Shown in pieces: positions 241-20,600 of a stretch of DNA of 47,422 bases. Location: assembly GCA_024222455.1 (NCBI GenBank), contig JAAEPD010000413.1, positions 1-47,422 of the forward strand, in the 5' to 3' direction. The notes below the pieces were generated by a model, which saw only the letters and a program-made list of their open reading frames with translations, searched no databases and was not told where the DNA came from. How positions within the stretch are numbered: position 1 is the first letter of the stretch; every line of letters begins with the position of its first letter. Made by a program: the position numbers and the translations under genes. The stretch comes from Aureispira sp. GTDB taxonomy: Bacteria; Bacteroidota; Bacteroidia; Chitinophagales; Saprospiraceae.

Positions 241-3200
241 ATGAGAAGAACATCTACATTATTTATAGCAATATGCTACATTATTTTATTATTCAGTGTG
301 TCATCTATTCAAGCCCAAACCCGTATAGGAGGAGGGGAGTTGAGCTATGAATGTTTAGGAGGAGGAGATTATTTGGTCTCTTTAATTCTCTATTCAACTT
401 GTGATGCTTCAGGCTCAACTACAGGAGCTACTACCGAAACTGTAGACTATGCAACTACTTTTGGATCTTGCGCTTCTGGTAGCTTTAGCCTAACTCAAGT
501 AGCAATAGAAGATATTACTCCTGTTTGTCCTGCTGCCACAACTACGTGTGCCAATGGTGGAGTTCCTGGTATTGCAAAAGTAACCTATGAAGGAATTGTT
601 AATTTACCTGAATTTTGTGGACCAGCAATACTTTCTTGGACATATTGTTGTCGAGATAATAGTGTAGGTTCTTTATTTGATCCAACTACAGAAAATATTT
701 ATCTAGAGGCGACTATAGATGATCCTGCAGCTAGTACATGTAATAGCTCACCAGTGTTTTTGAATGACCCTATTTTAGCTGCTTGTGCTGACCAGACAAT
801 ACACATCAATGATGTAGCTTATGACTTTGATGGAGATTCTTTAGTCTACTCTTTAGTAGATTGTAAGACTAGTTCTGGTACTTCAGTTGCTTATGGGAAT
901 AGTGCTCCTTCGTTTTCTGGAAAAGAGCCACTAGGGAATTTTAGTACAGTCACTATAGATTCTGCTACAGGAGCTATAACGGCTAATGCTCATTCAGCCT
1001 CTTTGGGATTACCATTTCGTACAGTTCTTTGTCTTAAAGTTGATGAATACAGAAATGGCTTTTTTATTGGGACAACCATGCGCGATATGGAGTTTTATAT
1101 ATATGACTGCTCTGCAACAGGAACTCCTAATACTACACCAACAATCACAGGTTTCCAAAAAGGAAATAGTTTTAGCACCAGTTATGATACTACAATATGT
1201 GTAGGACAAACTTCATGTTTGAGAATTGAAGCTGAAGACCTAAATCCTACTGATACAATTGAATTATCCTGGGATAAATCAATTGTGGGAGCATCTACTG
1301 CTGAAAAGCAAGTGGGGGCAAATAAGATTTTTGGTGAACTTTGTTGGGCTCCATCTTTAGCAGATGTTGGAACACATTACCTTAATGTAAAGGTAGCAGA
1401 TAATGCTTGTCCTATTATAGCCCAAAGTACTTATACCTATCAAATTAATGTAGTAGCTCCTATTCATACAGTAGATGCAGGTCCAGATATTACTGTTTGT
1501 CAGGGAGACGATAATGCAATGCTATCTGCTGTTACTACAGCTATTACTGCTGATATAGATTCTGTGTATTGGACACCTAGTGCAGGATTATCTCACCCAG
1601 ATTCGCTGATAACCAATATTGGAATACCAACAACAACAACTTATACTGTACATGTTGTACTCAAAAATGGCTGTGTAATTACGAATTCTAAAACAGTGTA
1701 TGTAGAATCTAGCCCTGATGTAAACGTTCATCCATCTTATATAAGAGCATGTCCTAACTCATCAATTACACTAAATGCAGTAGCCAATAATACAGGATTA
1801 GACTTTGAATGGCTAGACCCCTCAAAGAGCTCATTAGGTACAGGAACTACCTCTGGACTTTTTTCAGAAATAGGAGTAACTACTCCTCCTAGTTCAGGAG
1901 ATTACCCCTTTTATGCAGTTGTAAAAGACCCTACTACTGGTTGTACAGATACAGCTTCGGCATTTGTAAGATTGGGAGGTGCTGTTACTGATGGTGATGT
2001 TTGTCAAAATATATATGCATCTAATCAAGTAAATGTTCCTACAATAGGTACTCGTGATGATCCTACAACTTTAGAGGATGCCTTAGATAGAGCCGCTTGT
2101 ACTGGAACTAGAATTAAATTAGATACAGGATATTATCATTTAGCAGAACCTTTGCAAGTAGGAGGGGGATTGGTCTTAGAAGGTGGTTTTATGAGTGGTG
2201 ATAATTGGAGGAAAACTAGTAAACAAGGAGCCACAACTATAAATAGACGTGCTATAGCTGTAGAAGGTTCTATTGGCTCGAATGCAAGAATCACGGCTTT
2301 AGAAATGAATGGGGCTAAACATTTTCGCTTACAAGATTTATCTGTGTCAACTGATGATGCAGGCACATTGGGCTCAGGTGTTTCCACTTATGGGATTCAT
2401 ATGGTCAATGTAGACTCTTATCTAATTGTAAGGGTTAATGTAGTTGCAGGTGATGCTAGTCCAGGAAAAGACGGTGCAAGAGGATGTAAGGGTATGGAAG
2501 GTAAAAGAGGTTTTGACGGAGTATCAGCCATAAATATAGCAGGACCTCCCAGTCCAGGTGGAGATGGGGGAGAAGGAGCTGCTCCTGGAGATTCTTGTAG
2601 AAATACCCCTGGTGCAAATGTACCTGGAGGTAAAGCTTCTTTGATAAATGGGGCATCAGCTCCTCTACCATCTAATGCTGGTGGCGGTGGTGGAAAAGGT
2701 GCAGACGGGATAGGATCATTTGGTTCAACTATTGCTGGTAATGGTGGCAATGGAGGTGATATAGGAGGCTGTGCTGTATTAGGAAGTGGAGCTACTGCAG
2801 GTGGAGCTAGTGGAAACCTTTTAAGCTCTGGTCAACCAGGAGCACCTGGATTTCTTGGTGCAGATGTTTTGCCTACATGTTTTGTGATGGCAGGAGCTGC
2901 TCCTGATACCAATGTTCTCTGTTATTACACCTTAGGAGCTCCTGGTGGATTTGGAGAACCTGGTGCTGGTGGCGGTGGTGGAAAAGGCGGCGGTGGCGGC
3001 GGTGGCGTAGCAGGATCTGTAGGTGGTAGCGGCGGCGGCGGCGGTGGCGGTGGCCAAGGTGGTTTTGGTGGCCAAGGAGGTAGTTGTGGTGGCGGTTCAT
3101 TTGGTATTTATATTTGTGGAAATAATGCAGAAGGAATAATTATAGACTGTAATGTGAAAGCAGGAGCTTTTGGAGATGGAGGCTTAGGAGGAGATGGAGG

Positions 3201-6200
3201 TAATGGTGGCTCTGGTGGTGATGGAGGAGATCCTGGTGTAGGAATAGCAGGAGTTGTTGGTGGCGGTGGTCCTGGCGGCAAAGGTGGTTCTGGTGGCCAA
3301 GGTGGTAAAGGTGGTGATGGAAGCGATGGAATAGCCAAAGATATTTATGTGTCAGGATTCCCTCTCAAAAGTTCTAATATAACCTTTGACCTAGCTGGAC
3401 AAGAGATTATCTTTGTAGAAGATGTTAGTTGTGCAAAAACAAATGTAACATTTGAAGATGATGGAATAGGTGCTGGCTTTGCTCAATGGATATTTGGACC
3501 TAATGCTACACCTTCTAGCTCAGGAGCAGTAATTGTCCCAGTACAATATGACACTACAGGAGTATTTGATGTACAAAATATAAATCAACCCAACTCTACA
3601 TACAGTCAATTTGTAACAATGTCATCTACAGGAGCTGTACCAGAAATACAAACAACAGCTAATAGACTTAGTCCTAATACAGGATTTCCTGATACGGTCC
3701 AAATATGTTTAGGAGATACTGCAACATTTTTTAGTCATTTACCTGGAGATACTATCAATTGGAACTTTAACGGAGCTTTACCACCTGCATTTAATGATAC
3801 ATCTGTAGTTGGTTCACAGCAAATAACAGGAATGGAATTTAATATTCCAGGATTATTTCCTGTAGAAATGAGAGTATATACTTCTTGTTGTGGATGGTCA
3901 GCTATAGATACTGTTTGGCTTTTTGTAGATCGTATTCCTACTCCTATAGCCTCTATGGATACCGTTGTTTGTGAAGGAGAAGATGCCTTACTAACATTAT
4001 CAGGACTTGTGGCAGGAGATACAGTGTTGTGGTCGCCTATTATTGCAGGGCAGTTCAATCATATCTCAATAGATAGTGTAGAGGTTACACCTCCTGTTAC
4101 AACAACTTATACCGCAGCAGTTTATGCTGTTATTACAGCAGGAAGTCATATGCACTATGCTTGTCCTGAGGTAGTAGATATAGAAGTGGATGTAATGGAA
4201 TCTCCAGATATTACGCTTATTCCTATCGATGAAACCTGCAATGATGATGGACAAATAGATGTTATTATAAATAATTTTGATCCAGGAAGTGGTTATGTTT
4301 TTGAATGGGAAACAGGATCAGCAACTGCGGCTGTATCTTCTTATACCATTACAAATTTAGCAGAAGGAGCTTATTGTGTAACAGTTACAGAGTTTATAAC
4401 ATCTCCTTTAGTTACTTGTGTGGAACAAAGTTGTGAACTAGTGTTAAAGGACCCTACCTTTGCACCTACATTATATGTAGATAGTACTAGTGGTGTTTCT
4501 TGTTATGGAGCAGATGATGGTTATATAAGAGTAGCTGTTGTTGGAGGAGCTAGTGGTGGTGCTCCTGGTGCATATACGTATACTTGGTCGCCTGCATTAG
4601 GAGTTGTTACAGATAGTGCAGCTTTTGATTTGCCTCCTGGAGATTATACTATAGAAGCGAATGATAATGCTAGTAATTGTACAGATGAAATTACTGTCAA
4701 TATTCCAGAACCAGACTCTCTAGATTATTCTATAAATACAACACCAGTTTCTTGTAATAGTGCTAACACTACTGATGGTGTTATAGAAGTACAAGCATCT
4801 GGAGGAGCAGGTCCTTATACCTACGAATTGTCAAATACTGTAGTTAATGCTACAGGGATGTTCACAGGGTTAAGTCCTGGTGATTATGTTGTAACTATTA
4901 CAGATGATAATCTCTGTACAAAAATTGATACTATTAATCTTCAAGCTTTGGTTAATATTGGAAATTCTTTTGCTATAGATAGCATTGACTGTTATGGTGA
5001 TTCTACATTAGTTGTTTCTTCTCCAACAGGAGGTTCTACTTACAACTTTCAATGGCAAGAGTGGAATGGATCTACCTATGTTACAATCCTTTCGGGAGCG
5101 GGAATTAATAGTATTAACTTACCTGCAGGTGAATATCGTGTACGAATAGAAGATAATTCTTCTGGCTGTACTATCCCAAGACTATTTTCCATGTCTGAGC
5201 CAGATACCTTAATTGCCGACTCCTTAAGTTATGTACCAAGTCCTGCACAAGGTTGTGCTTCTTTGATAGGGGCCAACGCCACAGCTATGGGGATAGGAGG
5301 AACAGCACCTTATACTTATGAGTGGAGTAATGGAGATGTTACAGCCACTGCTGTAAATTTAGCCAATGGTATTCAAGTAGTAACAGTTACAGATGCTAAT
5401 GGTTGTACTGCTACATCTGTAATTACAGTAAGTTATCCTAATATTACTTTTGATATAGATGCTGGGCAAGATACTTTAGTTATTTGTGCTGGTGAAACAG
5501 CTATTTTAAACTTGAATAATGTCACTAATATTCCTGTCGCCTGGACACCAAGTGGAACATTATCAGACACTACAGACCTCAATCCAATAGCTTCACCATC
5601 AATTGCAACTACATATTATATGAGTTCTTTGGGGGATGGCAGCAACTTGATCGTAAATGGAGATTTTGAATTAGGCTATGATGGTTCTTATTCTACAGAT
5701 TATAATATGCAATTTAGTTTTACAAGCCTGGGCATAGGAGATTATGCTATTGATGCAGATGCTAGTGCTTATGGATTTTTAAAATATGACCAGTTTGATC
5801 ACACTTCTGGTTTAGGCAATTTTCTTATGGCAAAAGGATTTGCCACCTCTCAAGATGTATGGTGTCAGTCTGTGGTTATCGAACAAAATACTGCTTATGC
5901 CTTATCTTTTTGGGTCAATAACTTACTAGATACTAGTAACGCTGTCTTTTCGGACCTTCCTGACCCTGAGCTAGAAGTATATATCAATGGAACATTAGTA
6001 ATTTCAACACAGAAAATTGCAGAATTTCCTGATGAATGGATACAGCATGGAGCTGTTTGGAATTCTGGAGGTAACAGTACAGCTAATATTTGTATTAGAA
6101 ATGCCTCAACTAATTTAGTTGGAAATTCTTTTGGTATAGATGATATTGAGTTTAGATCCTCTCCTGGCTGTAAACTAGTAGATTCTGTACTAGTAGAAGT

Positions 6201-9200
6201 AAGTGATCCTCAGCTTACAATAATATCAACTAAAGATCCTAGTTGTAATGTAAGTTTTGATGGCGAAATACAAACAGGACTAAGTTTTATCCCAATTTCT
6301 ACAGGATATAGTAGTCCTATTCCTGCTTATTCTTGGGGGAATGGACAAACTACCACTACTGCAACAGCTTTAGCAGCAGGACAACATTGCCTTACAGTAA
6401 CAGATCAATACAATTGTAAGGATTCAATATGCACTACATTATCAGCACCAGCTAGTTTTTCTGTTTCTATTTCAGCTACACCTGATTATATAGGTGCTTG
6501 TATAGGTAATAATGGAATAGCAACAGCTATAGTAACTGGAAATCCTGGCCCATTTTCTTATAATTGGGAAGTCGCAGGTGTTTCTATTGGCTCAGCACAG
6601 TCTATTCATGGTTTAACAGGTAATGTTATTTGTGATGTAGAGGTAACGGATACGAATGGTTGTACTGCCAATACTTCTGTACTAATAGCAGATTCTGCTA
6701 TAGTTTTTGATATAGCACAAGATACTTTTTCCATCTGTATGGATGATACTGTACAGATAGGTGTAGATACCGATTTAGATGTATTTTGGACACCTGGATT
6801 TGGACTTAGTAGTAGCATAATAGATAGTCCATTTGCTGCACCTTCTGCCTCCACTATATACTATGCTAGTGCAGACGTACTAGCTCCATCTAGTGGTGTA
6901 AACCTTGTTGTTAACGGAGATTTTGAACTGGGGAATGTAGGATTTAATTCCGATTATAGTTTTATACCTCCACTCACATTATTGGGAACAGGTAATTATG
7001 CCGTAGACACTAGTGCTTATGAATACAATAATCAACATAGTGGTTATGATCATACTTCTGGCTCTGGCAACTTGATGATAGTAGATGGGAACTCATCGTT
7101 GACTAATATTTGGTGTCAAACAGTGCCTGTTACACCTAATACTGATTATGATTTTTCAGCGTGGTTTAATAGTCTAACTAAGCTCCCTAATAATTATGCA
7201 GATCCAAAAATTGTTTTATTAGTTAATAATATCCCTATTTATACATCTCCTCAGATCCTAGAATCTCCTGATCAATGGATTCAGTATGGAGAAACTTGGA
7301 ATTCTGGAGCATCAGTAAGTGCTGATATTTGTATTCAGATGATTTATGTGAATGGAGGAATAGGAAATGATATTGCAATAGATGATATAGAATTCTATCC
7401 AACATCTATATGTGAACTAGTAGATTCTGTACTAGTAGAAGTAAGTGATCCTATACCAACTTTAACCAGTACAGATATAAGTTGTCCTGCTAATGCAGAT
7501 GCGACTATAGCTATTAATGTTGCAGGAAGTTTAGCTACAACTTATGATTATACCTATAATAATACAACATCAGGAACTAATGGAGCTGGTTATAACCAAC
7601 CCTTCCCAGATACAATAACTGGATTAGATGCAGGTATGTATCTAATTACAATAACAGAAGTTGGTGGTGCAGTTTGTTCAATTATAGACAGTATTGCTAT
7701 TGGTCAAATTACTCCACTAGTGGTTGATACTGTATTTTATACAGACTCCTTAGATTGTAATGGAGATAGTGATGGACAGATTATAGTAGATGGAAGTGGC
7801 GGAACAGGGCCATATACATTCCAATGGGATGCTTTTGCAGGTGGAGGACAAACAACACAAATGATTAATGGGTTATTTGCCAATACTTATTCTGTAACTG
7901 TTACAGATGACAAGGGCTGTGAGGCTACAGCATCTATAGAGATTGGACAGCCTAATTCCTTTTTTGGTGGTGCAATTCCTTTTTCTTCAGTCACTTGTCC
8001 TAGTGGTAGTGATGGTATAATGCAAGCATTCCCTGGAGGAGGAACACCTCCATATAGCTATTTATGGGATAGTAATGCAGGAGGACAGACAACCTTGCAG
8101 GCTACAGGCCTAACAGTTGGAGTTTATAACATAACTGTTACTGATGCTAATGGTTGTACGGCCACTGGAGCTGAGTTAATGACAGGCCCTTTACCTTTTG
8201 TAATAGATATAGATACCATAAGTTCTGGTTGTGTAGGGGCTTCTAATGGAGAACTATTACTCAATTCTATATCTGGAGGGTCTCCCACTTATACTTTTCT
8301 ATGGTCTAATGGTAGTACAGCTGTTAATGCCACAGGATTGGGAGAAGGTTCACATTGTGTGACTATCACAGATGGAACAGGTTGTAAGGATAGTGTTTGT
8401 ACTACACTTACAGCGTTGCCCAACAACATGAGCTTAAGTATGGATGCTGTACCTGAATTTTCGATTGCTTGTGGAGGTTTTAATGGTATAGCAATAGCAG
8501 ATCCAACAGGTGGAACAGAGCCTTATAGCTATACTTGGGCAAATACTAGTCCTGCATTATTCCCTAACAGCCAAGCTATAGATGGACTTCTTGCGGACAA
8601 TTATACTGTCACGGTTACTGACGCTTCTGGTTGTAGTATAGAAGGTACAATTCCTGTCATAGATTCTATGATTGATTTTAGTCTTTTACAAGATAGTATT
8701 ACAATATGTGTAGACGATACTGCTCAGCTTAATATTAATACTCCTTTGGATGTACTTTGGACACCTGGGTTTGATTTGAGTGCAACTAATATAACAAACC
8801 CATTTGCTCTACCTTCTAGTCCAATAACATATACAGTTACGGCAGGAGTAGATTTGCCTCCTAGTGGTATAAACCTTGTAGCTAACGGCGATTTTGAATT
8901 AGGGAATGTGGAGTTTACAAGTAACTTTAATTATGTTGCACCTCCAGGATTCCCTGGAGCATTGGGGGCCAATGACTATGCTATAGATACAAGTGCAGGT
9001 GAGTATAACAATGCTTATGCTCAATATGACCACACAACAGGCGCAGGTAATTTTATGATGTTAGATGGACAATCATCAACAGCAGATTTTTGGTGTCAAA
9101 TAATACCTGTTGCACCTAATACCGATTATGAATTTTCTGCATGGTTCAATAATATTATAGATACAACTCAAAACTTTTTAGATGCAGGAATTAGTTTAGT

Positions 9201-12200: not shown

Positions 12201-15200
12201 AATAGATACAGTTAGTTTAATAACTTGCCCAGGTGGTTCTAATGGAGCATTTCAAGCTAATATTACAGGAACTTACAGTAGTTTACTTTGGAATACGGGC
12301 TCAGGCTCTGCAACTATTTTTAGTTTAGCTCCAGGAAGATACACTGTAACAGTAACTTATGGCTCTGCATCTTGTGTAGATTCTGCTTCAGTTGTATTAG
12401 TGGGACCAGATCCGCTCCAAGGAACATTTCTAAATCAAAAAGATGTGACCTGTAATGGTGGTAGTGATGGTGAAGTCACTGTGCAAGGATCAGGAGGAAC
12501 AGGATTATTAACTTATCAATGGAGTGCTAATGCTGGCTCTGCAACAACTCAAACAGTCACTGGTTTATCAGCAGGTAACTATAATGTAGTAATAAGAGAT
12601 GCTAATAATTGTGCGAGAGGAGCTTTTGTTACTATTACCGAACCCTCTGCTATTACTATGACAACAACTGTCTTAGCTAATATAAACTGTAATGGGGGCA
12701 ATGATGGTGAAGCAGTTGTTGTACCTACAGGAGGAACCCCGAATTATACCTATTTATGGGCTGGAGGACAGACTGCGGCTACCGCTACAGGATTGAGTAG
12801 CGGTACTACAGGAGTGACAGTAACAGATGGTAATGGTTGTACCATGACAAGTTCGGTTACTATTACCGAACCATCTATAGTTACAGCTACTTTGGCGTCT
12901 CAAACAAATGTACTTTGTAAGGGAGATAGCACTGGAGTCGCATCCATTACAGCTTCAGGAGGAGTAGGAGGTTATACCTATTTATGGGATGCCTCTGCCA
13001 ATAACCAAACTACAGTAACCGCTACAGGTCTTAAAGCAGGTAGTTATTTTGTAACTATTAGTGATTTTAATAGTTGCACGGCAGTTAGTTTTGTAACAAT
13101 AGCAGAGCCAGCTACTATAGTGTCAGTATTTATAAATCCTATCACAGTACAACACATAAGTTGTAATGGAGGTACAGATGGGTTAGCTGTAGCTGTGGGC
13201 TCTGGGGGAGCTATAGGAAGTACTTATAGTTATCTATGGAGCAATGGTGAGGCTCAAGATACAGCATTTAGTCTATCTGTAGGATGGAATTATGTCACAG
13301 TAACAACTAATGATGGTTGTACAGTCATTGATTCTGTAGAGATATATGAGCCACCAGTATTAGTCGCAACGCTCTCTGGAAGTTCATCTATATTATGTAA
13401 TGGTGATTCTACAGGGACATTGTCTGTCTCTATAGGAGGAGGAACTTTGCCTTATATCAATACTGCTTGGAGTAACGGACAGTCAGGCCCAGCTTTAAAT
13501 ACAATAAACGCCCTTTCTGCAGGGACTTATACTGTGACGGTGACAGATGATAAAGGCTGTGAAGACACTGCTACAACAGTGATTACAGAACCTAACGCTA
13601 TTCAGATAGTATTAGATAGTTACCAAGATGTATCTTGCAATGGAGCAAATGATGGATTCTTAACAGTAGTAGCATTTGGGGGGACTCCTTTTCTTACATA
13701 CTCTTGGACAGGACCAGGAAGTACATCTTATTCAGGAGCTAATATCACTAATTTAGTTGCTGGCAAGTATATCTTAACAGTAACTGATGGAAATTCTTGT
13801 GAGAAAATAGATTCCTTCTTTATTTTAGAACCTTCAGCAATAGCTCTTTCTTTCTCTGGTGCAACGGATGTGAGTTGTAGTGGCGCAAACGATGGAGGGG
13901 TGACTGTTGTGGCAGTAGGAGGTTCTCCTAATTATACCTATTTATGGGCTGGAGGACAGACTACCGATCAAGTGACAGGTTTGAATGGAGGGTTGAAAAG
14001 TGTAACGGTAACAGATGCCAACAGTTGTACAATGGTAAGTTCAGTCTCCATAACAGAACCATCTGCTGTTACAGCCACTATTGCTCTTCAAACAAATGTA
14101 TTTTGTAAAGGAGATAGTACTGGTACTGCATCTGTCACTGCTTCAGGAGGCGTAGGGGGCTATACTTATTTATGGGATGCTTCTGCCAATAACCAAACTA
14201 CAACTACAGTTACAGGTCTAAAAGTAGGTAATCATGCAGTTACTATAACTGATTTTAATGGTTGTACAGCTACAGCTACAGCTGTAATTGCAGAACCAGC
14301 TACCGCTGTAGGGGGAAGTATAACAGTATTAATTCATGTATCTTGTTTTGGAGGTAGTGATGGTTTGGCAATAGCTTCAGGTTTTGGTGGTGCAGGTACT
14401 CCTTATACTTACGAGTGGAGTAATGGGGATAAGAAAGATAGTTTGATAGACGTAACTGCAGGGAGATACTATGTAACTGTTACAGATGGTGATGGTTGTG
14501 TAGCTATTGATTCGGTAGATATAATGGAACCAACTACTCCTTTAGTTATTGATTCAAGTAATATCTTTATTAGCTTCTTGGATACTACTACATGTAACGG
14601 CTCTATTGATGGAGTATTGAGTATATATGGAACAGGAGGAACACCTATTTCAGGAGCATACAATTATCAATGGGGAGCTAGTGCCGGAGGGCAAACCACA
14701 GAGATAGCAACAGGTTTAGCAGCTGGAATACATCAAGTAACTATAACAGATGCCAATGGCTGTTCTGTAGTGGGAATAGGTGAAATAATAGAACCTAGTC
14801 CTGTAATAGCCTCTGCCGTTGTCACCTCCCTTGTCAATGGATATGGAGTAGCCTGTAATGGACAAACATCTAATGGTGCTGCTCAAGCCTCAGCTACTGG
14901 TGGTAGTCCTACCATAGTTGGAGCGTCTACAATCTATACTTACTTATGGGATGCTAATGCAGGTAATCAAGCTGTAGATTCGGCTCAAAACCTTTCTACA
15001 GGTACTTTTGTAGTTACAGTGAGTGATCAGTATGGTTGTTCTGATACTGCTTCTGTTACACTCACAGAGCCTTCTGCTGTATCCGTGACAATGACAGAGG
15101 TTTTACCAATATCTTGTGTAGGCGATTCTAATGCAATTGCAACTGCTATTGGAGCAGGTGGAGTGCCAGGCTATACTTATTTATGGGATATTAATGCAGG

Positions 15201-18200
15201 TAGTCAAACTACTGCTGTTGCTACAGGTTTAACACCTGGATCTTACCAAGTATTTGTAGTCGATTCTAACAATTGTTCAATTATTGGAAATATAACTATA
15301 GACCCTGCTGACACTTTATTTATAAAAGATACTATATATAGTGATTATAATGGGTTCCCTATAAGTTGTGCAGATTCTGCAGATGGCTCTATAGGAGTAT
15401 CAGTAGTTGGAGGAACTCCTGGGATTAGTGGTTACACCTACAATTGGATAGGGCCTAATGGCTTTACTAGTAATGTAGATTCTATTGGGGGCCTAGAAGC
15501 TGGAGTTTATACCGTAATTGTGACCGATTCATTAGGTTGTAGTATTTCGGAGACTATAACAATAGGTGACCCAACTCCTGTAGTTGGTGTTGTTGATACT
15601 ATTATACATTTAAGCTGTGCAGGAGTGTCCTTGCCTGATGGAGAGGCTACCGTAAGTGGAAGTGGTGGAACGGGAGCATTTACCTACGCTTGGAGTGGTG
15701 CTGGTTTCAATCCAGTTGGATTAGTAGGCGGAACTGCAATAAATCAAGTAGCAGGTACTTATACAGTAAGAGTTATTGATGCCAATAGTTGTGAAGACTC
15801 AGTTATTGTAGTTATCACTGAACCTAGCCCTATAGTTATTACTACAGATAGTATAGAAACATTTTGTAATGGAGATTCAGTAGGTGTGGCTATTGCAATA
15901 GCTTCAGGAGGAACCCCTGACCCATCTTTAGGAACTTATTCTTATGCTTGGGATATTAATACTGGTAGTCAAACTACAGCAAGTGCTACAGGTTTGGCAG
16001 CAGGAACTTATGATGTGACTGTTACTGATTATAATGGTTGTTCAGTCACTACTACGGCTACAGTTACAGAACCTTCAGCTATTACAGTTAGTGTTGTAAA
16101 TGCAGTTCCTTTATCATGTACTAATCCTTTGGAAGCAACAGCTATAGCAAGTGTCTCAGGTGGGACAATTGGAGTGGGGGGATATACTTATTCATGGGAT
16201 TCCAATGCTGCAAGTCAGACAACAGCCACTGCTACAGGTTTGGCAGCAGGAACATACGCTGTTGTCGTTCAAGATGCTAATGGTTGCGGGGAATTAGGGA
16301 TTGTTGTTATAGATGCACCAAACCTAATGACTATACAAGACACTGTTTACAGTGATTACAATGGAGAAAATATTAGTTGTGCAGATTCTACAGATGGAGA
16401 GATTGGTGTGATTGTCACAGGAGGGTATCCTAGTTATACTTATATCTGGACAGGACCTGGTAGTTATACAGCAAGTACAGACTCCATATTTGGTTTAGAA
16501 CCTGGTATTTATACTGTGGAAGTATATGATTCCTTGGGTTGTATGGTAACAGAAACTATAGTAATAGATGAGCCTGATCCTGTAGATGTTTCAATAGATA
16601 CTTTTGCAGATGTATCTTGTGCTGGTGGCACAGATGGTCTAGCTATTGTAGATGTGATAGGAGGAACAGGAGGATATTCTTATCTGTGGACAGTAGCTAC
16701 TACTACTGATTCTTTGGCCAATAACTTAGGTGTAGGTGTTTATACTGTAACTGTGGTAGATGCTAATGGCTGTATAGGAATTGACAGTATAGACATAGAT
16801 GAACCAGATAGTTTGGATATTGACTTAGATGTAATCTCAGATTATGCTGGGGCCGATATAAGCTGTAATGGAGCCAATGATGGAGCTATAGAGGCGATTG
16901 TTTTTGGAGGAACGGCTAATTATACTTATGAATGGAATTTTTCTGGAACAAGTACAACTACAGATACAGTTGGTAGCTTAGGATCGGGTCTACATACAGT
17001 GATAGTTACCGATGCTAATGGTTGTGTAGATACAACAGATATATTCCTTGATGAACCGACTGTAGTAATCGCAAATGCTATTGTTTCTGTACCAATATCT
17101 TGTAATGGCGCTACATTGGCTACTGCTATAGCAAGTGCTACAGGAGGAACTTCTGGAGCTAGCGGTTATACTTATGAATGGGATGCAGCCGCAAATGGTC
17201 AAACTACGGCAGATGCTACAGGACTTATTGCAGGTACTTATGCAGTTACGGTGACAGATGCTAATGGTTGTATGGACACTACAACAGTATTTATTGATGC
17301 ACCAAACTTAATGACGGTGCAAGACACTGTTTACAGCGATTATAATGGAGAGGATATAAGTTGTAATGGAGCAAGTGATGGAGAGATTGGTGTGATTGTG
17401 TCAGGAGGATACCCTAGTTACACTTATGATTGGACAGGCCCTAATGGATTTGTAGCAAGTACGGATTCTATATTTGGATTAGAAGCGGGTACTTATACTG
17501 CAGTTATTACTGATTCATTAGGTTGTATAGCAGTCGAAACCATAACAATAGATGAGCCATCACCTTTAGTTCTAAATATGATTGGTCAAGATGTAGATTG
17601 TGCTGGAGAGACTGATGGGGATGCAACTGTTTATCCTATTAGTTCAGTTGGTATTGCTGGATATTTGTGGAATGATAGTAATGGTCAAACTACCGCTCAA
17701 GCAACAGGTTTGGGAGCAGGTATCTATACGATTACTGTTACAGATATTAATAGTTGTATAGGTGTTGATAGTGTAGAGATAGATGAACCAGATAGTTTGG
17801 ATATTGACTTAGATGTAATATCAGATTACGCTGGAGCAGATATAAGTTGTAATGGAGCCAATGATGGAGCTATAGAGGTGATTGTTTTTGGAGGAACGGC
17901 TAATTATGATTATGAGTGGAATTATTCTGGATCAACTACAAGTACAGATACTGTAGGTGGTTTAGGTGCAGGTATTCATACTGTAGTTGTAACAGATGCT
18001 AATGGCTGTACAGATACAACAGATATATTCCTTGATGAACCAACTGTGGTGGTAGCAAGTGCTATTGTTTCTATACCAATACCATGTAATGGGAATGGAA
18101 CGGCTACTGCTATAGCAAGTGCTATAGGAGGAACTTCTGGAGTTAGTGGTTATAGTTTTGTTTGGGATGCAATAGCAGGAGGGCAGACTACTGCAAGTGC

Positions 18201-20547
18201 TAATGGTTTGGTTCCAAATACATACACAGTTACGGTGACAGATGTTAATGGTTGCATGGACACTACAACAGTAGTGGTAGATCCACCAAATTCGATAGCA
18301 TTACAAGGTTCTATAACTAGTAATTATAATGGTGAACCTATAAGTTGTAATGGAGCTAGTGATGGTGAAATTAGTGTGATTGTAACTGGAGGTGTTCCAT
18401 TTGCTAGTGGATATGACTATAGTTGGACAGGTCCTAATGGATTTACAGGGAATACAGATGCTATATCTGGTTTATCTGCTGGTAGTTATACTGTAGTAGT
18501 TACAGATTCTATAGGTTGTGTGGCTGTGGAGGTTATTACAATAAATGAACCCTCTCCTGTCAATGCTGCAATTGATGCCTTTACAGATCTGTCTTGTGCT
18601 GGAAGTAATGATGGAGAAGCTATTGTTATAGGTACAGGAGGAGTAAGTCCTTACTTTTATGCATGGAGCAATAACACAGCAATAGATACTGCATCAAACC
18701 TAACGTCAGGAATGTATTATGTTACAGTTACTGACTTGAACGGTTGTATGGCTGTAGATTCAGTATTTATTAATCAACCAGATAGTCTAGAGGTTGAGTT
18801 GGTAATAACAGATTCTATTAGTTGTCATGGTGCTCAAGATGGAGTTATTACTGCAGATGTTTCAGATGGTACACCTAATTATACTTATATATGGATGCAG
18901 AATGGTTCAGTTATGAGTGGAGCTACTACTGATGAAGTGACCAATTTACTAGCAGGGACCTATAGTATCGAAGTAATAGATGCGAATGGTTGTGTTGCCA
19001 TTGATTCTATAATATTATCTGCCCCACCTGTAATAGCACTTACAGTGGTGAGTAGTGCAGACCCTAATTGTTTGGGTGTAGATGACGGAACTATTACTGT
19101 AGATGCTAGTGGTGGTGCAGGAAACTTTGATTATGATTGGTCTAATGGGCAAAACGGTCCAATAGCTACAGGTTTAGGAGCAGGAACTTATTCTATAACT
19201 GCAGAGGATGCTAATGGTTGTACAGATACTATTAGTATACAATTGAACCCAGGTATAATATTGCCAATGCCTAACGTTTCAGGAGATTCAGCAGTTTGTG
19301 AAGGGGATTCTATCAGCTTAACCGCAACCTCTTCTAATCCTAATTATATGTATAATTGGGTAGGACCAAATAACTTTAGTTCATCTATACAAAGTCCTTT
19401 AGTGACACCTTCTGCAAATGCTCTTAATACTGGATTGTATACTGTGTATTTAGTAGATACGGCTACAGGTTGTCAGTCTGCAGATACCTCTATTTATGTT
19501 ACTGTGAATGTAGGGCAGTCTATTACCGCAAGTAATTCTAGTCCAACATGTTTGGGTGATGGTGTTACCTTATCTGTTCCAACTGTGCCAGGAGCAACAT
19601 CTTATGAGTGGTTCCGTGCTGGTACAGGAGCTTATGTAGGAGCAGGAGAGACTTTGATTATTAACAACACAACTTATGCAGATTCTGGTGATTATTATGT
19701 ACGTGTCCAGATAGGAAATTGTGAGATAATCTCAAGCATGACAAGAGTGACTATACAAAGCATTACATTAGTTGTGGATGCTGGCCAAGATCAAAGCTTG
19801 TGTGGAGAAGATTCTACTCGTTTATCTGCTAATTCAGGTGGATTGAGCGGACAATGGACTACAACTTCATCGGCTACGATTATAAATATGAATAGTGCAA
19901 ATACATCTGTGACTAATTTAGCTATTGGCGACAATATATTTGTATGGTCTGTAAGTGCTGCATGTGGAGGTTTTGATACTGATACAATAATTGTGACGGT
20001 AGAAGATGTACCTCAGGCCAATGCTGATGCATATACCTTGTATTATACAAATCTAGATACAAGTATTAATGTGGTTGGTAATGACACATGGAATGCAAAC
20101 TGGACATTGAATGTTACCACAGGATTAGGATCTGGAGTGTTGACCGATATGGGTAGTGGTGATTTTGATGTTAATTTGACTGGGGTCACAAGCGACCAAA
20201 GTTTTGTATATCAATTATGCAATCCTAACTGTCCTGTGAATACTTGTGATACAGCATTAGTAACCTTAAATATACAAGGTGAGAACACTTGTACAGTACC
20301 TAATATTTTTACACCAAATCAAGATGGGAGCAATGATCGTTTAGAGATTCCTTGTTTGATTGGTTATGAAGGTGCCAAGTTGTATATTTATAACAGATGG
20401 GGTGACTTATTGTACGAGACTGATAATTACCGAAACAACTGGGAAGGAACTCATAAAGGGAGACCACTCCCTGATGCTACATATTTCTATATCTTAGTAT
20501 TACAAGATAATACCACTAAGCAAGGATATATTGAGTTGAGACGATAA
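241..20547 (+). CDS. Giant SprB-repeat surface adhesin, T9SS type B cargo
   Basis: Predicted secreted cell-surface protein of 6,768 residues, probably an adhesin acting in gliding or surface attachment like SprB of Flavobacterium johnsoniae (family knowledge; function inferred). The ATG at 241 gives a classic signal peptide starting MRRTSTLFIAICYIILL and ending near SSIQAQ; an in-frame TTG at 178 and ATG at 196 would put an unlikely polar extension before it. Domain order seen: Bacteroidota N-terminal domain (about residues 30-290, YECLGGGDYLV); PKD/Ig-like domains to about 580; beta-helix-like stretch with 'GGGLVLEGGF' (about 600-735); glycine-rich segment (about 739-1034); PKD-like domains; about 49 SprB-type repeats (about 1321-6338) interrupted by four NGDFE modules; Ig/PKD-like domains; and a C-terminal CHU_C/type B sorting domain (about 6684-6768) with CTVPNIFTPNQDGSND, YNRWGDLLYE and PDATYFYIL. 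Followed by sprF-like and porE-like genes, matching the usual partner arrangement. Confidence 0.93.
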   Translation: MRRTSTLFIAICYIILLFSVSSIQAQTRIGGGELSYECLGGGDYLVSLILYSTCDASGSTTGATTETVDYATTFGSCASGSFSLTQVAIEDITPVCPAATTTCANGGVPGIAKVTYEGIVNLPEFCGPAILSWTYCCRDNSVGSLFDPTTENIYLEATIDDPAASTCNSSPVFLNDPILAACADQTIHINDVAYDFDGDSLVYSLVDCKTSSGTSVAYGNSAPSFSGKEPLGNFSTVTIDSATGAITANAHSASLGLPFRTVLCLKVDEYRNGFFIGTTMRDMEFYIYDCSATGTPNTTPTITGFQKGNSFSTSYDTTICVGQTSCLRIEAEDLNPTDTIELSWDKSIVGASTAEKQVGANKIFGELCWAPSLADVGTHYLNVKVADNACPIIAQSTYTYQINVVAPIHTVDAGPDITVCQGDDNAMLSAVTTAITADIDSVYWTPSAGLSHPDSLITNIGIPTTTTYTVHVVLKNGCVITNSKTVYVESSPDVNVHPSYIRACPNSSITLNAVANNTGLDFEWLDPSKSSLGTGTTSGLFSEIGVTTPPSSGDYPFYAVVKDPTTGCTDTASAFVRLGGAVTDGDVCQNIYASNQVNVPTIGTRDDPTTLEDALDRAACTGTRIKLDTGYYHLAEPLQVGGGLVLEGGFMSGDNWRKTSKQGATTINRRAIAVEGSIGSNARITALEMNGAKHFRLQDLSVSTDDAGTLGSGVSTYGIHMVNVDSYLIVRVNVVAGDASPGKDGARGCKGMEGKRGFDGVSAINIAGPPSPGGDGGEGAAPGDSCRNTPGANVPGGKASLINGASAPLPSNAGGGGGKGADGIGSFGSTIAGNGGNGGDIGGCAVLGSGATAGGASGNLLSSGQPGAPGFLGADVLPTCFVMAGAAPDTNVLCYYTLGAPGGFGEPGAGGGGGKGGGGGGGVAGSVGGSGGGGGGGGQGGFGGQGGSCGGGSFGIYICGNNAEGIIIDCNVKAGAFGDGGLGGDGGNGGSGGDGGDPGVGIAGVVGGGGPGGKGGSGGQGGKGGDGSDGIAKDIYVSGFPLKSSNITFDLAGQEIIFVEDVSCAKTNVTFEDDGIGAGFAQWIFGPNATPSSSGAVIVPVQYDTTGVFDVQNINQPNSTYSQFVTMSSTGAVPEIQTTANRLSPNTGFPDTVQICLGDTATFFSHLPGDTINWNFNGALPPAFNDTSVVGSQQITGMEFNIPGLFPVEMRVYTSCCGWSAIDTVWLFVDRIPTPIASMDTVVCEGEDALLTLSGLVAGDTVLWSPIIAGQFNHISIDSVEVTPPVTTTYTAAVYAVITAGSHMHYACPEVVDIEVDVMESPDITLIPIDETCNDDGQIDVIINNFDPGSGYVFEWETGSATAAVSSYTITNLAEGAYCVTVTEFITSPLVTCVEQSCELVLKDPTFAPTLYVDSTSGVSCYGADDGYIRVAVVGGASGGAPGAYTYTWSPALGVVTDSAAFDLPPGDYTIEANDNASNCTDEITVNIPEPDSLDYSINTTPVSCNSANTTDGVIEVQASGGAGPYTYELSNTVVNATGMFTGLSPGDYVVTITDDNLCTKIDTINLQALVNIGNSFAIDSIDCYGDSTLVVSSPTGGSTYNFQWQEWNGSTYVTILSGAGINSINLPAGEYRVRIEDNSSGCTIPRLFSMSEPDTLIADSLSYVPSPAQGCASLIGANATAMGIGGTAPYTYEWSNGDVTATAVNLANGIQVVTVTDANGCTATSVITVSYPNITFDIDAGQDTLVICAGETAILNLNNVTNIPVAWTPSGTLSDTTDLNPIASPSIATTYYMSSLGDGSNLIVNGDFELGYDGSYSTDYNMQFSFTSLGIGDYAIDADASAYGFLKYDQFDHTSGLGNFLMAKGFATSQDVWCQSVVIEQNTAYALSFWVNNLLDTSNAVFSDLPDPELEVYINGTLVISTQKIAEFPDEWIQHGAVWNSGGNSTANICIRNASTNLVGNSFGIDDIEFRSSPGCKLVDSVLVEVSDPQLTIISTKDPSCNVSFDGEIQTGLSFIPISTGYSSPIPAYSWGNGQTTTTATALAAGQHCLTVTDQYNCKDSICTTLSAPASFSVSISATPDYIGACIGNNGIATAIVTGNPGPFSYNWEVAGVSIGSAQSIHGLTGNVICDVEVTDTNGCTANTSVLIADSAIVFDIAQDTFSICMDDTVQIGVDTDLDVFWTPGFGLSSSIIDSPFAAPSASTIYYASADVLAPSSGVNLVVNGDFELGNVGFNSDYSFIPPLTLLGTGNYAVDTSAYEYNNQHSGYDHTSGSGNLMIVDGNSSLTNIWCQTVPVTPNTDYDFSAWFNSLTKLPNNYADPKIVLLVNNIPIYTSPQILESPDQWIQYGETWNSGASVSADICIQMIYVNGGIGNDIAIDDIEFYPTSICELVDSVLVEVSDPIPTLTSTDISCPANADATIAINVAGSLATTYDYTYNNTTSGTNGAGYNQPFPDTITGLDAGMYLITITEVGGAVCSIIDSIAIGQITPLVVDTVFYTDSLDCNGDSDGQIIVDGSGGTGPYTFQWDAFAGGGQTTQMINGLFANTYSVTVTDDKGCEATASIEIGQPNSFFGGAIPFSSVTCPSGSDGIMQAFPGGGTPPYSYLWDSNAGGQTTLQATGLTVGVYNITVTDANGCTATGAELMTGPLPFVIDIDTISSGCVGASNGELLLNSISGGSPTYTFLWSNGSTAVNATGLGEGSHCVTITDGTGCKDSVCTTLTALPNNMSLSMDAVPEFSIACGGFNGIAIADPTGGTEPYSYTWANTSPALFPNSQAIDGLLADNYTVTVTDASGCSIEGTIPVIDSMIDFSLLQDSITICVDDTAQLNINTPLDVLWTPGFDLSATNITNPFALPSSPITYTVTAGVDLPPSGINLVANGDFELGNVEFTSNFNYVAPPGFPGALGANDYAIDTSAGEYNNAYAQYDHTTGAGNFMMLDGQSSTADFWCQIIPVAPNTDYEFSAWFNNIIDTTQNFLDAGISLVVNSNVIYTSPQIPELPDDWIQYDGVWNSGLATTASICIQMNLPFTGIGNDIGVDDIEFYPISSCELEDSVAVLVSDPIPTLTSTDVSCPANADGTIAINVVGGLTTTYDYDYLNTAIGTSTSVSGQTFPDTITGLTAGKYIITITEVGGANCTIVDSIFVDQGTPLKVDTVFYTDSLDCNGDSDGQIIVDGDGGIGPYTFQWDAFAGGGQTTQMINGLFANTYSVTVTDAKGCEATASIEIGQPNFFAGGAIPFSSVTCPSGSDGIMQAFPGGGTPPYSYLWDSNAGGQTTLLATGLTVGIYNITVTDANGCTATGAEQMTGPLPFVIDIDTIADVSCIGGSNGALQVSSIANGTGTYTYQWSNSSTGPIATGLADGVHCVTITDGGTGCSESICATLTALPNSMSLSMEATPEYTNDCGGSNAIAIAEPIGGIEPYFYSWTSTLSTTFPNSQAIDGLIADDYSVTVTDAAGCSVTGMIPVVDSFIVFDLLQDSFVICVDDTAQLDINSTLDVLWSPGIGLSAINIPNPEAAPLSNIIYAVTAGVDLPPSGINLIANGDFELGNTLFNSNFNYIDPSTFVGPPLGLQNYTIDVDASIYHSPGNWVGLDHTNPGSGMFMIIDADATTANTEIWCQTVNVAENTDYEFSAWFQNILTSGAPFAQPDVEIQVNGVPILSIVDLPLPPAGWAQHSSTWYSANATTAQVCIHSVDITTGFGGSDLGIDDIEFYPISSCELEDSVAVIINDPTVVLSGTNLTCNTSSDGTIAVSASGGYSTSYTYGIVDAGTGSPVSSGSVPDVATIFTSGTYLVGIIASDTTGCTAEDSIVISAPDPITVDTIIFNDTVSCNGVADGMIVITALGGTGAGTYSYQWTDATNAIISTTGSATGLASGAYSVTITDANGCSMTEFYLIEEPMFYDVAITSKTDISCPGNIDGTATVMPILGGVSPFDYIWDLNAGSQTAATATGLAEGSYGVTVIDANGCTDTAIAIIGPPPSISIKIDTVSLITCPGGSNGAFQANITGTYSSLLWNTGSGSATIFSLAPGRYTVTVTYGSASCVDSASVVLVGPDPLQGTFLNQKDVTCNGGSDGEVTVQGSGGTGLLTYQWSANAGSATTQTVTGLSAGNYNVVIRDANNCARGAFVTITEPSAITMTTTVLANINCNGGNDGEAVVVPTGGTPNYTYLWAGGQTAATATGLSSGTTGVTVTDGNGCTMTSSVTITEPSIVTATLASQTNVLCKGDSTGVASITASGGVGGYTYLWDASANNQTTVTATGLKAGSYFVTISDFNSCTAVSFVTIAEPATIVSVFINPITVQHISCNGGTDGLAVAVGSGGAIGSTYSYLWSNGEAQDTAFSLSVGWNYVTVTTNDGCTVIDSVEIYEPPVLVATLSGSSSILCNGDSTGTLSVSIGGGTLPYINTAWSNGQSGPALNTINALSAGTYTVTVTDDKGCEDTATTVITEPNAIQIVLDSYQDVSCNGANDGFLTVVAFGGTPFLTYSWTGPGSTSYSGANITNLVAGKYILTVTDGNSCEKIDSFFILEPSAIALSFSGATDVSCSGANDGGVTVVAVGGSPNYTYLWAGGQTTDQVTGLNGGLKSVTVTDANSCTMVSSVSITEPSAVTATIALQTNVFCKGDSTGTASVTASGGVGGYTYLWDASANNQTTTTVTGLKVGNHAVTITDFNGCTATATAVIAEPATAVGGSITVLIHVSCFGGSDGLAIASGFGGAGTPYTYEWSNGDKKDSLIDVTAGRYYVTVTDGDGCVAIDSVDIMEPTTPLVIDSSNIFISFLDTTTCNGSIDGVLSIYGTGGTPISGAYNYQWGASAGGQTTEIATGLAAGIHQVTITDANGCSVVGIGEIIEPSPVIASAVVTSLVNGYGVACNGQTSNGAAQASATGGSPTIVGASTIYTYLWDANAGNQAVDSAQNLSTGTFVVTVSDQYGCSDTASVTLTEPSAVSVTMTEVLPISCVGDSNAIATAIGAGGVPGYTYLWDINAGSQTTAVATGLTPGSYQVFVVDSNNCSIIGNITIDPADTLFIKDTIYSDYNGFPISCADSADGSIGVSVVGGTPGISGYTYNWIGPNGFTSNVDSIGGLEAGVYTVIVTDSLGCSISETITIGDPTPVVGVVDTIIHLSCAGVSLPDGEATVSGSGGTGAFTYAWSGAGFNPVGLVGGTAINQVAGTYTVRVIDANSCEDSVIVVITEPSPIVITTDSIETFCNGDSVGVAIAIASGGTPDPSLGTYSYAWDINTGSQTTASATGLAAGTYDVTVTDYNGCSVTTTATVTEPSAITVSVVNAVPLSCTNPLEATAIASVSGGTIGVGGYTYSWDSNAASQTTATATGLAAGTYAVVVQDANGCGELGIVVIDAPNLMTIQDTVYSDYNGENISCADSTDGEIGVIVTGGYPSYTYIWTGPGSYTASTDSIFGLEPGIYTVEVYDSLGCMVTETIVIDEPDPVDVSIDTFADVSCAGGTDGLAIVDVIGGTGGYSYLWTVATTTDSLANNLGVGVYTVTVVDANGCIGIDSIDIDEPDSLDIDLDVISDYAGADISCNGANDGAIEAIVFGGTANYTYEWNFSGTSTTTDTVGSLGSGLHTVIVTDANGCVDTTDIFLDEPTVVIANAIVSVPISCNGATLATAIASATGGTSGASGYTYEWDAAANGQTTADATGLIAGTYAVTVTDANGCMDTTTVFIDAPNLMTVQDTVYSDYNGEDISCNGASDGEIGVIVSGGYPSYTYDWTGPNGFVASTDSIFGLEAGTYTAVITDSLGCIAVETITIDEPSPLVLNMIGQDVDCAGETDGDATVYPISSVGIAGYLWNDSNGQTTAQATGLGAGIYTITVTDINSCIGVDSVEIDEPDSLDIDLDVISDYAGADISCNGANDGAIEVIVFGGTANYDYEWNYSGSTTSTDTVGGLGAGIHTVVVTDANGCTDTTDIFLDEPTVVVASAIVSIPIPCNGNGTATAIASAIGGTSGVSGYSFVWDAIAGGQTTASANGLVPNTYTVTVTDVNGCMDTTTVVVDPPNSIALQGSITSNYNGEPISCNGASDGEISVIVTGGVPFASGYDYSWTGPNGFTGNTDAISGLSAGSYTVVVTDSIGCVAVEVITINEPSPVNAAIDAFTDLSCAGSNDGEAIVIGTGGVSPYFYAWSNNTAIDTASNLTSGMYYVTVTDLNGCMAVDSVFINQPDSLEVELVITDSISCHGAQDGVITADVSDGTPNYTYIWMQNGSVMSGATTDEVTNLLAGTYSIEVIDANGCVAIDSIILSAPPVIALTVVSSADPNCLGVDDGTITVDASGGAGNFDYDWSNGQNGPIATGLGAGTYSITAEDANGCTDTISIQLNPGIILPMPNVSGDSAVCEGDSISLTATSSNPNYMYNWVGPNNFSSSIQSPLVTPSANALNTGLYTVYLVDTATGCQSADTSIYVTVNVGQSITASNSSPTCLGDGVTLSVPTVPGATSYEWFRAGTGAYVGAGETLIINNTTYADSGDYYVRVQIGNCEIISSMTRVTIQSITLVVDAGQDQSLCGEDSTRLSANSGGLSGQWTTTSSATIINMNSANTSVTNLAIGDNIFVWSVSAACGGFDTDTIIVTVEDVPQANADAYTLYYTNLDTSINVVGNDTWNANWTLNVTTGLGSGVLTDMGSGDFDVNLTGVTSDQSFVYQLCNPNCPVNTCDTALVTLNIQGENTCTVPNIFTPNQDGSNDRLEIPCLIGYEGAKLYIYNRWGDLLYETDNYRNNWEGTHKGRPLPDATYFYILVLQDNTTKQGYIELRR
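2455..3340 (+). repeat. Glycine-rich low-complexity segment of the adhesin
   Basis: About 295 codons rich in GG, GGG and G-X-G triplets, beginning with a collagen-like run (GKDGARGCKGMEGKRGFDG) and passing into nearly pure glycine (around 2970-3060, built from GGTGGC/GGCGGT units) and GG-D/K/Q repeats. Local GC content is far above the surrounding gene. The segment interrupts a beta-helix-like region and is followed by a PKD-like domain. It resembles polyglycine-rich modules of other long surface proteins; the fold here is not determinable from sequence alone. Confidence 0.85.
5641..6171 (+). repeat. NGDFE lectin-like module, copy 1
   Basis: First of four intragenic modules of about 175 residues beginning NLIVNGDFELG and closing with FGIDDIEF. 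Internal landmarks are DHTSGLGNFLM, WCQSVVIEQNTAYALSFWVNN and EWIQHG. Such NGDFE/NPSFE domains are jelly-roll-like and are often carbohydrate-binding in secreted bacterial proteins (family knowledge); the ligand is unknown. It is preceded by a short PKD-like element with ICAGETAILNL. Confidence 0.75.
6898..7413 (+). repeat. NGDFE lectin-like module, copy 2
   Basis: Second module, beginning VNLVVNGDFELGNVGF, with DHTSGSGNLMI, WCQTVPVTPNTDYDFSAWFN and QWIQYGETWNSG, ending AIDDIEFYP. It is closer to copies 3 and 4 than to copy 1, and is followed by the five-module SprB block that is duplicated downstream. Confidence 0.75.
8869..9393 (+). repeat. NGDFE lectin-like module, copy 3
   Basis: Third module, beginning INLVANGDFELGNVEF, with DHTTGAGNFMM, WCQIIPVAPNTDYEFSAWFN and DWIQYDGVWNSG, ending GVDDIEFYP. 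It lies about 1.97 kb after copy 2, as expected if a whole NGDFE-plus-SprB block was duplicated in tandem. Confidence 0.75.
10855..11400 (+). repeat. NGDFE lectin-like module, copy 4
   Basis: Fourth module, beginning INLIANGDFELGNTLF, with WCQTVNVAENTDYEFSAWFQ and GWAQHSSTWYSA, ending GIDDIEFYP. It is slightly longer than the others and is followed by a different run of SprB repeats, marking the end of the 1.98-kb tandem unit. Confidence 0.75.
15310..19254 (+). repeat. Four-copy higher-order repeat of four SprB modules
   Basis: Blocks of four SprB modules start at 15310, 16321, 17305 and 18289, each opening with a variant of 'DTVYSDYNG' (DTIYSDYNGFPISC, DTVYSDYNGENISC, DTVYSDYNGEDISC, GSITSNYNGEPISC). 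The last two offsets are both exactly 984 bp (328 codons) and the first is 1,011 bp. The module DSLDIDLDVISDYAGADISC at 16807 recurs 984 bp later almost unchanged. The pattern shows growth of the array by unequal recombination of four-module blocks. Confidence 0.85.
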
Positions 20548-20560
20548 AAATTATAGATTT

Positions 20561-20600
20561 ACCTACAACTAATTCGAATATTGGATTAGTTGTAGGTTTT
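20561..20600 (+). terminator. Intrinsic terminator-like hairpin between adhesin and sprF-like genes
   Basis: ACCTACAACTAAT (20561-20573) pairs perfectly with ATTAGTTGTAGGT (20585-20597) around an 11-nt loop; the stem is followed by only four T and then nine A. It starts 14 bp after the adhesin stop and ends 12 bp before the next ATG. The short U-tract suggests incomplete termination, which could lower expression of the downstream genes relative to the adhesin. Confidence 0.65.

Follow-up and report, generated by a model that had tools for sequence, protein, structure and literature searches.

A single gene in the window (the entire 47,422-nucleotide stretch of DNA analysed here) encodes what we read, with a probability of roughly 0.6, as a giant T9SS type B adhesin that is statically anchored to the cell wall and that combines a widespread N-terminal head, an SprB stalk carrying CBM-like modules and an export anchor of the grappling-hook type. 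Judged from its sequence, the product is a giant T9SS type B surface protein with an SprB stalk. The relatedness of its end piece to that of the grappling-hook protein GhpA points to a fixed fibre, used for capture or adhesion, and away from a gliding adhesin. The features of the gene and of its two downstream neighbours are collected in Table 1.

Table 1. Features of the adhesin gene and its downstream neighbours, in window coordinates
Feature	Position	Strand	Basis
Giant T9SS type B adhesin gene, 6,768 aa	241..20547	+	Frame, Pfam/NCBIfam
Signal peptide, residues 1-26	241..318	+	By eye
N-terminal Cys-rich domain (NTD), conserved in relatives	319..1431	+	
Two Ig/PKD-like domains	1432..1995	+	Ig_7 3.8e-05 over part, below cut-off
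Beta-helix-like segment ahead of glycine tract	2002..2475	+	Sequence pattern and strands of the model point to this fold
Glycine-rich segment 1	2476..3093	+	
Conserved strands within glycine region	3094..3165	+	
Glycine-rich segment 2	3166..3339	+	
PKD/Ig-like stretch linking head to stalk	3421..4200	+	Homologous stretch in relatives
SprB repeats 1-5	4234..5442	+	Iterated local profile
NGDFE (CBM-like) module 1	5641..6195	+	
SprB repeats 6-7	6241..6693	+	Iterated local profile
NGDFE (CBM-like) module 2	6898..7437	+	
SprB repeats 8-12	7477..8661	+	Iterated local profile
NGDFE (CBM-like) module 3	8869..9417	+	8869-9405 modelled
SprB repeats 13-17	9457..10647	+	Iterated local profile
NGDFE (CBM-like) module 4	10855..11424	+	
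SprB repeats 18-49	11467..19248	+	Iterated local profile
Ig-like domains	19249..19776	+	Ig_2, Ig_7 (Pfam, over cut-offs)
C-terminal 256 residues: Ig-like, cadherin-like, type B sorting domain; GhpA class	19777..20544	+	266.5 bits to GhpA
Perfect hairpin then TTTT, between cargo and PorP genes	20561..20597	+	
PorP/SprF-family shuttle	20612..21553	+	PF11751 240.6 bits, TIGR03519 254.5 bits; clade
PorE-like protein (PD40 propeller, OmpA; CarboxypepD_reg below its cut-off)	21637..24189	+	

The first-pass annotation had described one unbroken frame of 20.3 kb opening with a signal peptide, and both statements held. The frame runs through 6,768 codons (241-20544) to a stop at 20545-20547 without a single N, and the other five frames of the same interval contain 287 to 641 stops each. 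An in-frame TTG exists upstream at position 178, and the ATG at 241 opens a classical-looking signal peptide, as judged by eye only. Since the longest exact DNA repeat within the gene measures 47 bp, collapse of repeats during its assembly is unlikely.

The type B sorting domain that had been proposed is recovered by both TIGR04131 (72.1 bits, cut-off 35) and CHU_C (92.8 bits, cut-off 27). The last 256 residues of the protein align with residues 5641-5898 of GhpA (Aureispira sp. CCB-QB1, PDB 9flp, 5,898 aa), to the very end of that protein, with an identity of 48% over residues 2-256 and 47% over 272 aligned columns. GhpA and the window protein further share Ig-like domains near the C-terminus, the clade of the adjacent PorP and a PorE-like neighbour. 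In contrast, GhpA has an Ig stalk and 11 copies of the pre-CTD Ig domain where the window protein has an SprB stalk and one copy, and we found no match in GhpA to the NTD or the glycine head: neither residues 1-1120 nor the NTD profile matched it, and the NTD profile found no PDB chain. A profile of the NTD together with the Ig domains does match GhpA, but its best stretch lies in the Ig part and the match was not accepted as evidence for orthology of the whole head. Aureispira contig C26, with which the comparisons were made, encodes the C-half of GhpA, its 2,524 aa matching chain residues 3374-5897 at the same length (5,552.9 bits), and the window's own genome contains a GhpA-like C-half (G000:C578, L170; 61% identity over 1,337 aligned columns) with 11 pre-CTD Ig copies and with PorP and PorE-like genes.

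Of 248 genomes from the order, at least 51 have a C-terminus of the GhpA class (10 candidates per genome were scored, at E 1e-40), and the proteins that carry it are for the most part smaller cargos; 44 of these at least 51 genomes belong to the family of the window. The class profile gives 361 to 411 bits for the members in the window's genome and in the uncultured Aureispira sp. HLG_WM_MAG_10 (G645), and 379 bits for the window protein itself. Among 29 loci with such a C-terminus, flanks of about 1.5 kb hold a PorP gene in 20 and the start of a PorE-like gene in 11. On these profile matches the GhpA-type C-terminal class is wider than the hooks, which counts against the reading as an anchored fibre. 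Another member (G215:C142; L206, L235, L236) is a cargo frame of 9,991 aa that looks Ig-like and runs off the edge of its contig; a PorP gene lies behind its GhpA-class C-terminus.

A PorP/SprF gene lies directly downstream of the cargo gene, as in T9SS type B cargos, and is followed by the PorE-like gene, whose product scores 325 bits with the PorE model and 397 bits with the CHU_0125 model, both below the equivalog cut-offs. The same order of cargo, PorP and PorE was found at GhpA, on Aureispira contig C34, in the GhpA-like locus of the window's genome (G000:C578), in G021:C34 and G003:C95 and in two loci of G645. On the other side, a GhpA-class end with a PorP, but with no PorE directly behind, is seen in Aureispira C23 and in the third cargo of G645. 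In a tree of 32 PorP sequences, taken from 63 matches in five genomes, the seven PorPs that adjoin GhpA-class C-termini constitute one side of a branch supported at 98/98. The window PorP is 60% identical to that of GhpA, and a phmmer search with it returned the six others at 248 to 454 bits (self 728, next best 159). The hairpin between the cargo and PorP genes has a perfect 13-bp stem (17 pairs in the fold; −21.3 kcal/mol, z −7.0); it may lower expression of the PorP gene by attenuation or shield the 20-kb message. Elsewhere in the window, two adjacent T9SS type A proteins (28590-29882 and 29889-30881) match Por_Secre_tail over its cut-off.

According to PMC9143113, a type B cargo assembles with PorP and PorE into a complex in which PorE is proposed as the tie to the cell wall, and the F. 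johnsoniae sprB and sprF genes do not adjoin porE. In the same species the PorE-operon cargo Fjoh_3952 appears static and SprB mobile (PMC12618676). By analogy with these proteins the window protein should be static and wall-anchored; the contrast between static and mobile cargos comes from F. johnsoniae, with one PorE-linked cargo imaged. Such a protein would leave the cell by the Sec and then the T9SS pathway, the adjacent PorP/SprF-type barrel would pick it up as its presumed cognate cargo, and the PorE-like protein would link the barrel to the cell wall and hold the cargo as a fixed fibre off the gliding track. The C-terminus would be the cell-proximal base, as in GhpA, whose entry titles place the neck at residues 1403-2314 and the base at 4151-5009, towards the C-terminus; by that comparison the head is taken as distal. 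In the stalk, where almost every one of the 49 SprB repeats has two Cys, the four CBM-like modules would lie near the outer end, and the N-terminal head (NTD, Ig-like domains, beta-helix-like part and glycine tract) would contact the target, with a putative role in adhesion or prey capture.

Relatives with the same head fall into two types of locus. In addition to the window protein, head cargos with a GhpA-class end in loci with PorP and PorE are found in G645:C47, in G021:C34b and probably in Aureispira C34/C50, where the contigs break. The closest in architecture is a 5,006-aa ORF of G645:C47 (L056), which shares the NTD, the beta-helix-like part, the glycine tract, SprB, an NGDFE module in nearly the same place (residues 1804-1982 versus 1801-1985 in the window) and the GhpA-class C-terminus, and which like the window has a PorP–PorE pair within its locus. 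It differs in having five detected SprB repeats rather than 49, one NGDFE module and an Ig-looking remainder of the stalk, and its PorP–PorE pair precedes the head cargo, behind another cargo, whereas in the window the pair stands behind the head cargo. The order in G645 is cargo A, PorP, PorE, the head cargo with NGDFE, a divergent PorE-like gene, cargo C and PorP. Likewise in G021 and probably in Aureispira C34/C50 the head cargo stands behind the PorP–PorE pair of another cargo, with no PorP of its own directly behind; this arrangement in the nearest relatives counts against the anchored-fibre reading. In all, G645:C47 (L249-L251) carries three GhpA-class cargos, two PorP and two PorE-like genes, an order that in Aureispira CCB-QB1 seems to be split over contigs C34, C50 and C23.

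The other type of locus is represented by three SprB giants. G021:C10 (5,364 aa) and a 6,020-aa frame of Saprospira grandis have the whole head as in the window followed by an SprB array. The third, Aureispira C51, measures at least 5,984 aa; its contig begins within the glycine tract and shows only the glycine end of the head. The three have 45, 46 + 3 and 65 SprB matches, respectively. Unlike the window protein, all three have a generic CHU_C end, which scores 55 to 75 bits with the GhpA-class profile, and another kind of PorP; among themselves these PorPs share 52-75% identity, against 21-31% with the window PorP and the GhpA PorP. The 6-8 kb inspected downstream of the three genes contained no PorE-like gene.

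These PorE-less giants, which carry the same head, lend some weight to the view that the window protein is itself a mobile gliding adhesin of the SprB type, its stalk moving on the gliding track and its head gripping the substratum. The protein does resemble SprB of Flavobacterium johnsoniae in its giant size, its SprB repeats (49 of them), its type B domain and the PorP/SprF gene directly downstream, and its genome encodes a GldJ-like protein (357.7 bits against a family cut-off of 458.2, which the Aureispira and Saprospira proteins also fail to reach). The F. johnsoniae protein is not known to have NGDFE modules or a glycine head. A PorP/SprF partner without a PorE-like neighbour is a trait of the SprB type, but here the PorE-like gene is present, and in this gene and in its GhpA-class C-terminus the window protein departs from SprB (6,497 aa; PMC9870892). 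The PorP clade points the same way, as does the finding that in F. johnsoniae mobile cargos lie outside PorE operons and the imaged PorE-linked cargo is static. The window protein is thus probably not a mobile SprB-type adhesin, and we consider that reading unlikely.

Another reading is that the window's genome encodes two types of grappling hook, the GhpA-like protein and the window protein, the latter likewise a multimer that captures prey. The C-terminal class and the PorP–PorE cassette shared with GhpA, which is a heptamer according to PMC13319060, would suit this reading. The genome holds, besides the GhpA-like C-half, a contractile sheath protein that shares 80% identity with its Aureispira counterpart. 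Yet the NTD profile matches no PDB chain, GhpA included, the pre-CTD Ig domain is present in one copy against 11, and the stalk is made of SprB rather than Ig domains; a second hook strikes us as improbable. Still less credible is an assembly chimera that joined an SprB giant to a cargo of the GhpA class. The assembly is of the metagenome type, with 683 contigs and 4.21% contamination, the contig edge lies only 240 bp ahead of the gene, and Ig domains make up most of the stalk in the four other GhpA-class cargos on which Pfam was run, but the uninterrupted frame, the 47-bp maximum of exact repeats and the identical order of head, SprB, NGDFE and C-terminal class in G645 make a chimera very improbable.

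Under the reading as a static, wall-anchored fibre, the anchor of the grappling hook is shared with giant fibres of other kinds. This reading could be extended to one head on two chassis in the same lineages, mobile where the locus is SprB-like and PorE-less and fixed where it is PorE-linked and hook-type. The window protein, possibly as a multimer, would then exemplify a second class of capture fibre in a predatory (ixotrophic) bacterium, built from a polyglycine head, a lectin collar, an SprB stalk and a hook-type base; we offer this extension as a tentative and rather doubtful one. The two types of locus provide a direct test of whether the C-terminal class and the PorE partner, not the stalk, decide between gliding and standing still. 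The natural experiment is at hand in G021, with C10 (PorE-less) and C34b (PorE-linked), and in Aureispira CCB-QB1, a cultured strain, with C51 versus C34/C50.

As regards predation, Phage_sheath_1 gave weak matches in four of five genomes, one of them over its cut-off, and because the four frames are 76-88% identical to one another a contractile sheath is likely. In the window's genome the sheath gene (G000:C513, L239) encodes 499 aa, and the small genes beside it may specify tube-like proteins. The VipB family (PF05943) was found in none of the five genomes, Aureispira included, a result that says nothing about T6SS. A GhpA-like C-half together with a contractile sheath gene would be compatible with a predatory life style.

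The head itself, which spans residues 27-1060, is widespread. Residues 21-745 and 13 relatives were combined into a head profile; at least 584 stretches matched the search pattern and at least 512 of them encode a relative. The best 80 of the at least 512 relative loci, all from named genomes, were kept, and they include Aureispira, Saprospira grandis and uncultured Saprospiraceae. The beta-helix-like part occurs in 28 ORFs of these best 80 loci, with a glycine tract within about 60 residues in 27 of the 28; the remaining ORF is truncated where its locus stops. The glycine segment is thus a part of a conserved head that precedes the SprB array. Accordingly, the glycine-rich segment reported by the first-pass annotation is present (roughly residues 746-1033) but does not lie inside the array, whose first repeat begins at residue 1332. 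At least four further proteins with such a head are encoded in the window's genome (C418, C415, C38 and C287). A phylum-wide search with two candidates scored per genome detected the head in two of 395 genomes, a figure not usable as a distribution. For the NTD neither Pfam (at 0.01) nor the PDB sequences (at 0.1) gave a match.

Within the glycine tract of the window protein every third residue tends to be glycine, the probability of a glycine at +3 being 0.68 versus 0.40 in shuffled sequence (z 7.6), and over all 22 aligned glycine-tract rows, the window included, z ranges from 6.0 to 8.8. This period would fit polyglycine II helices, which the tract perhaps forms. An AlphaFold model of the head (pLDDT 73.8 overall, pTM 0.48; confidence is low through much of glycine-rich segment 1) has beta strands before and between the glycine tracts, at about residues 589-735 and 953-973, and Foldseek with this model returned cadherin and Ig chains only at low TM. 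One relative, G021:C34b, matches the ALK glycine-rich domain (PF12810, ALK_LTK_GRD) at 2.1e-18. The match did not carry over to the 22 rows, none of which, that of the window included, matches PF12810 at 0.001.

The earlier count of about 49 SprB repeats proved sound. PF13573 exceeds its cut-off in four of the eight scanned pieces of the protein, with 3 + 7 + 12 + 12 = 34 stretches (E 0.01), and an iterated local profile gave 51 matches at E < 0.01, 49 of which were kept. The two that were dropped are a match at residues 285-325 with 2.6 bits and one at 6353-6416 that falls in the Ig-like stretch. The 49 repeats have a median spacing of 82.5 residues and 44 of them contain exactly two Cys. A diagonal scan of the array detected a block duplication of 377 residues at an offset of 660 residues, the copies being 74% identical (dN 0.21, dS 0.50). 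Since the four other GhpA-class cargos scanned with Pfam contain 0, 4, 0 and 4 SprB stretches, the 49-repeat SprB stalk on a GhpA-class anchor is the least usual trait in this sample.

All four of the predicted NGDFE modules were found, at residues 1806, 2225, 2882 and 3544, and as had been stated they sit inside the SprB array, interrupting its outer part. Pfam assigns no family at 0.01 to the piece containing modules 1 and 2. The lectin-like character that had been attributed to these modules agrees with the predicted fold of a single one: AlphaFold predicts a jelly roll for module 3 (pLDDT 72.3), and this model superimposes on CBM61 with Z 14.0 and an rmsd of 2.7 over 137 residues. CBM4, CBM16, CBM22 and CBM61 have this predicted fold in common with it (Z 12 to 14) but share just 10 to 21% identity with the module. 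The jelly rolls of MAM, cyclase and Cry toxin proteins match the model almost equally (Z about 12), and with these non-CBM folds following so closely sugar binding, suggested by the fold alone, can be put forward only as a prediction.

The first-pass annotation knew of no described architecture that combines a glycine-rich segment and lectin-like modules with SprB repeats, and we too found no description in the open-access literature. The combination is nevertheless not a one-off, since head, SprB, NGDFE and C-terminal class recur in the uncultured Aureispira protein of G645. Of 149 genomes from the order, 80 encode modules of the NGDFE type, and in three of the 11 loci inspected these modules share a frame with SprB-profile matches of more than 40 bits; lectin-like modules on SprB-type proteins are therefore recurrent.
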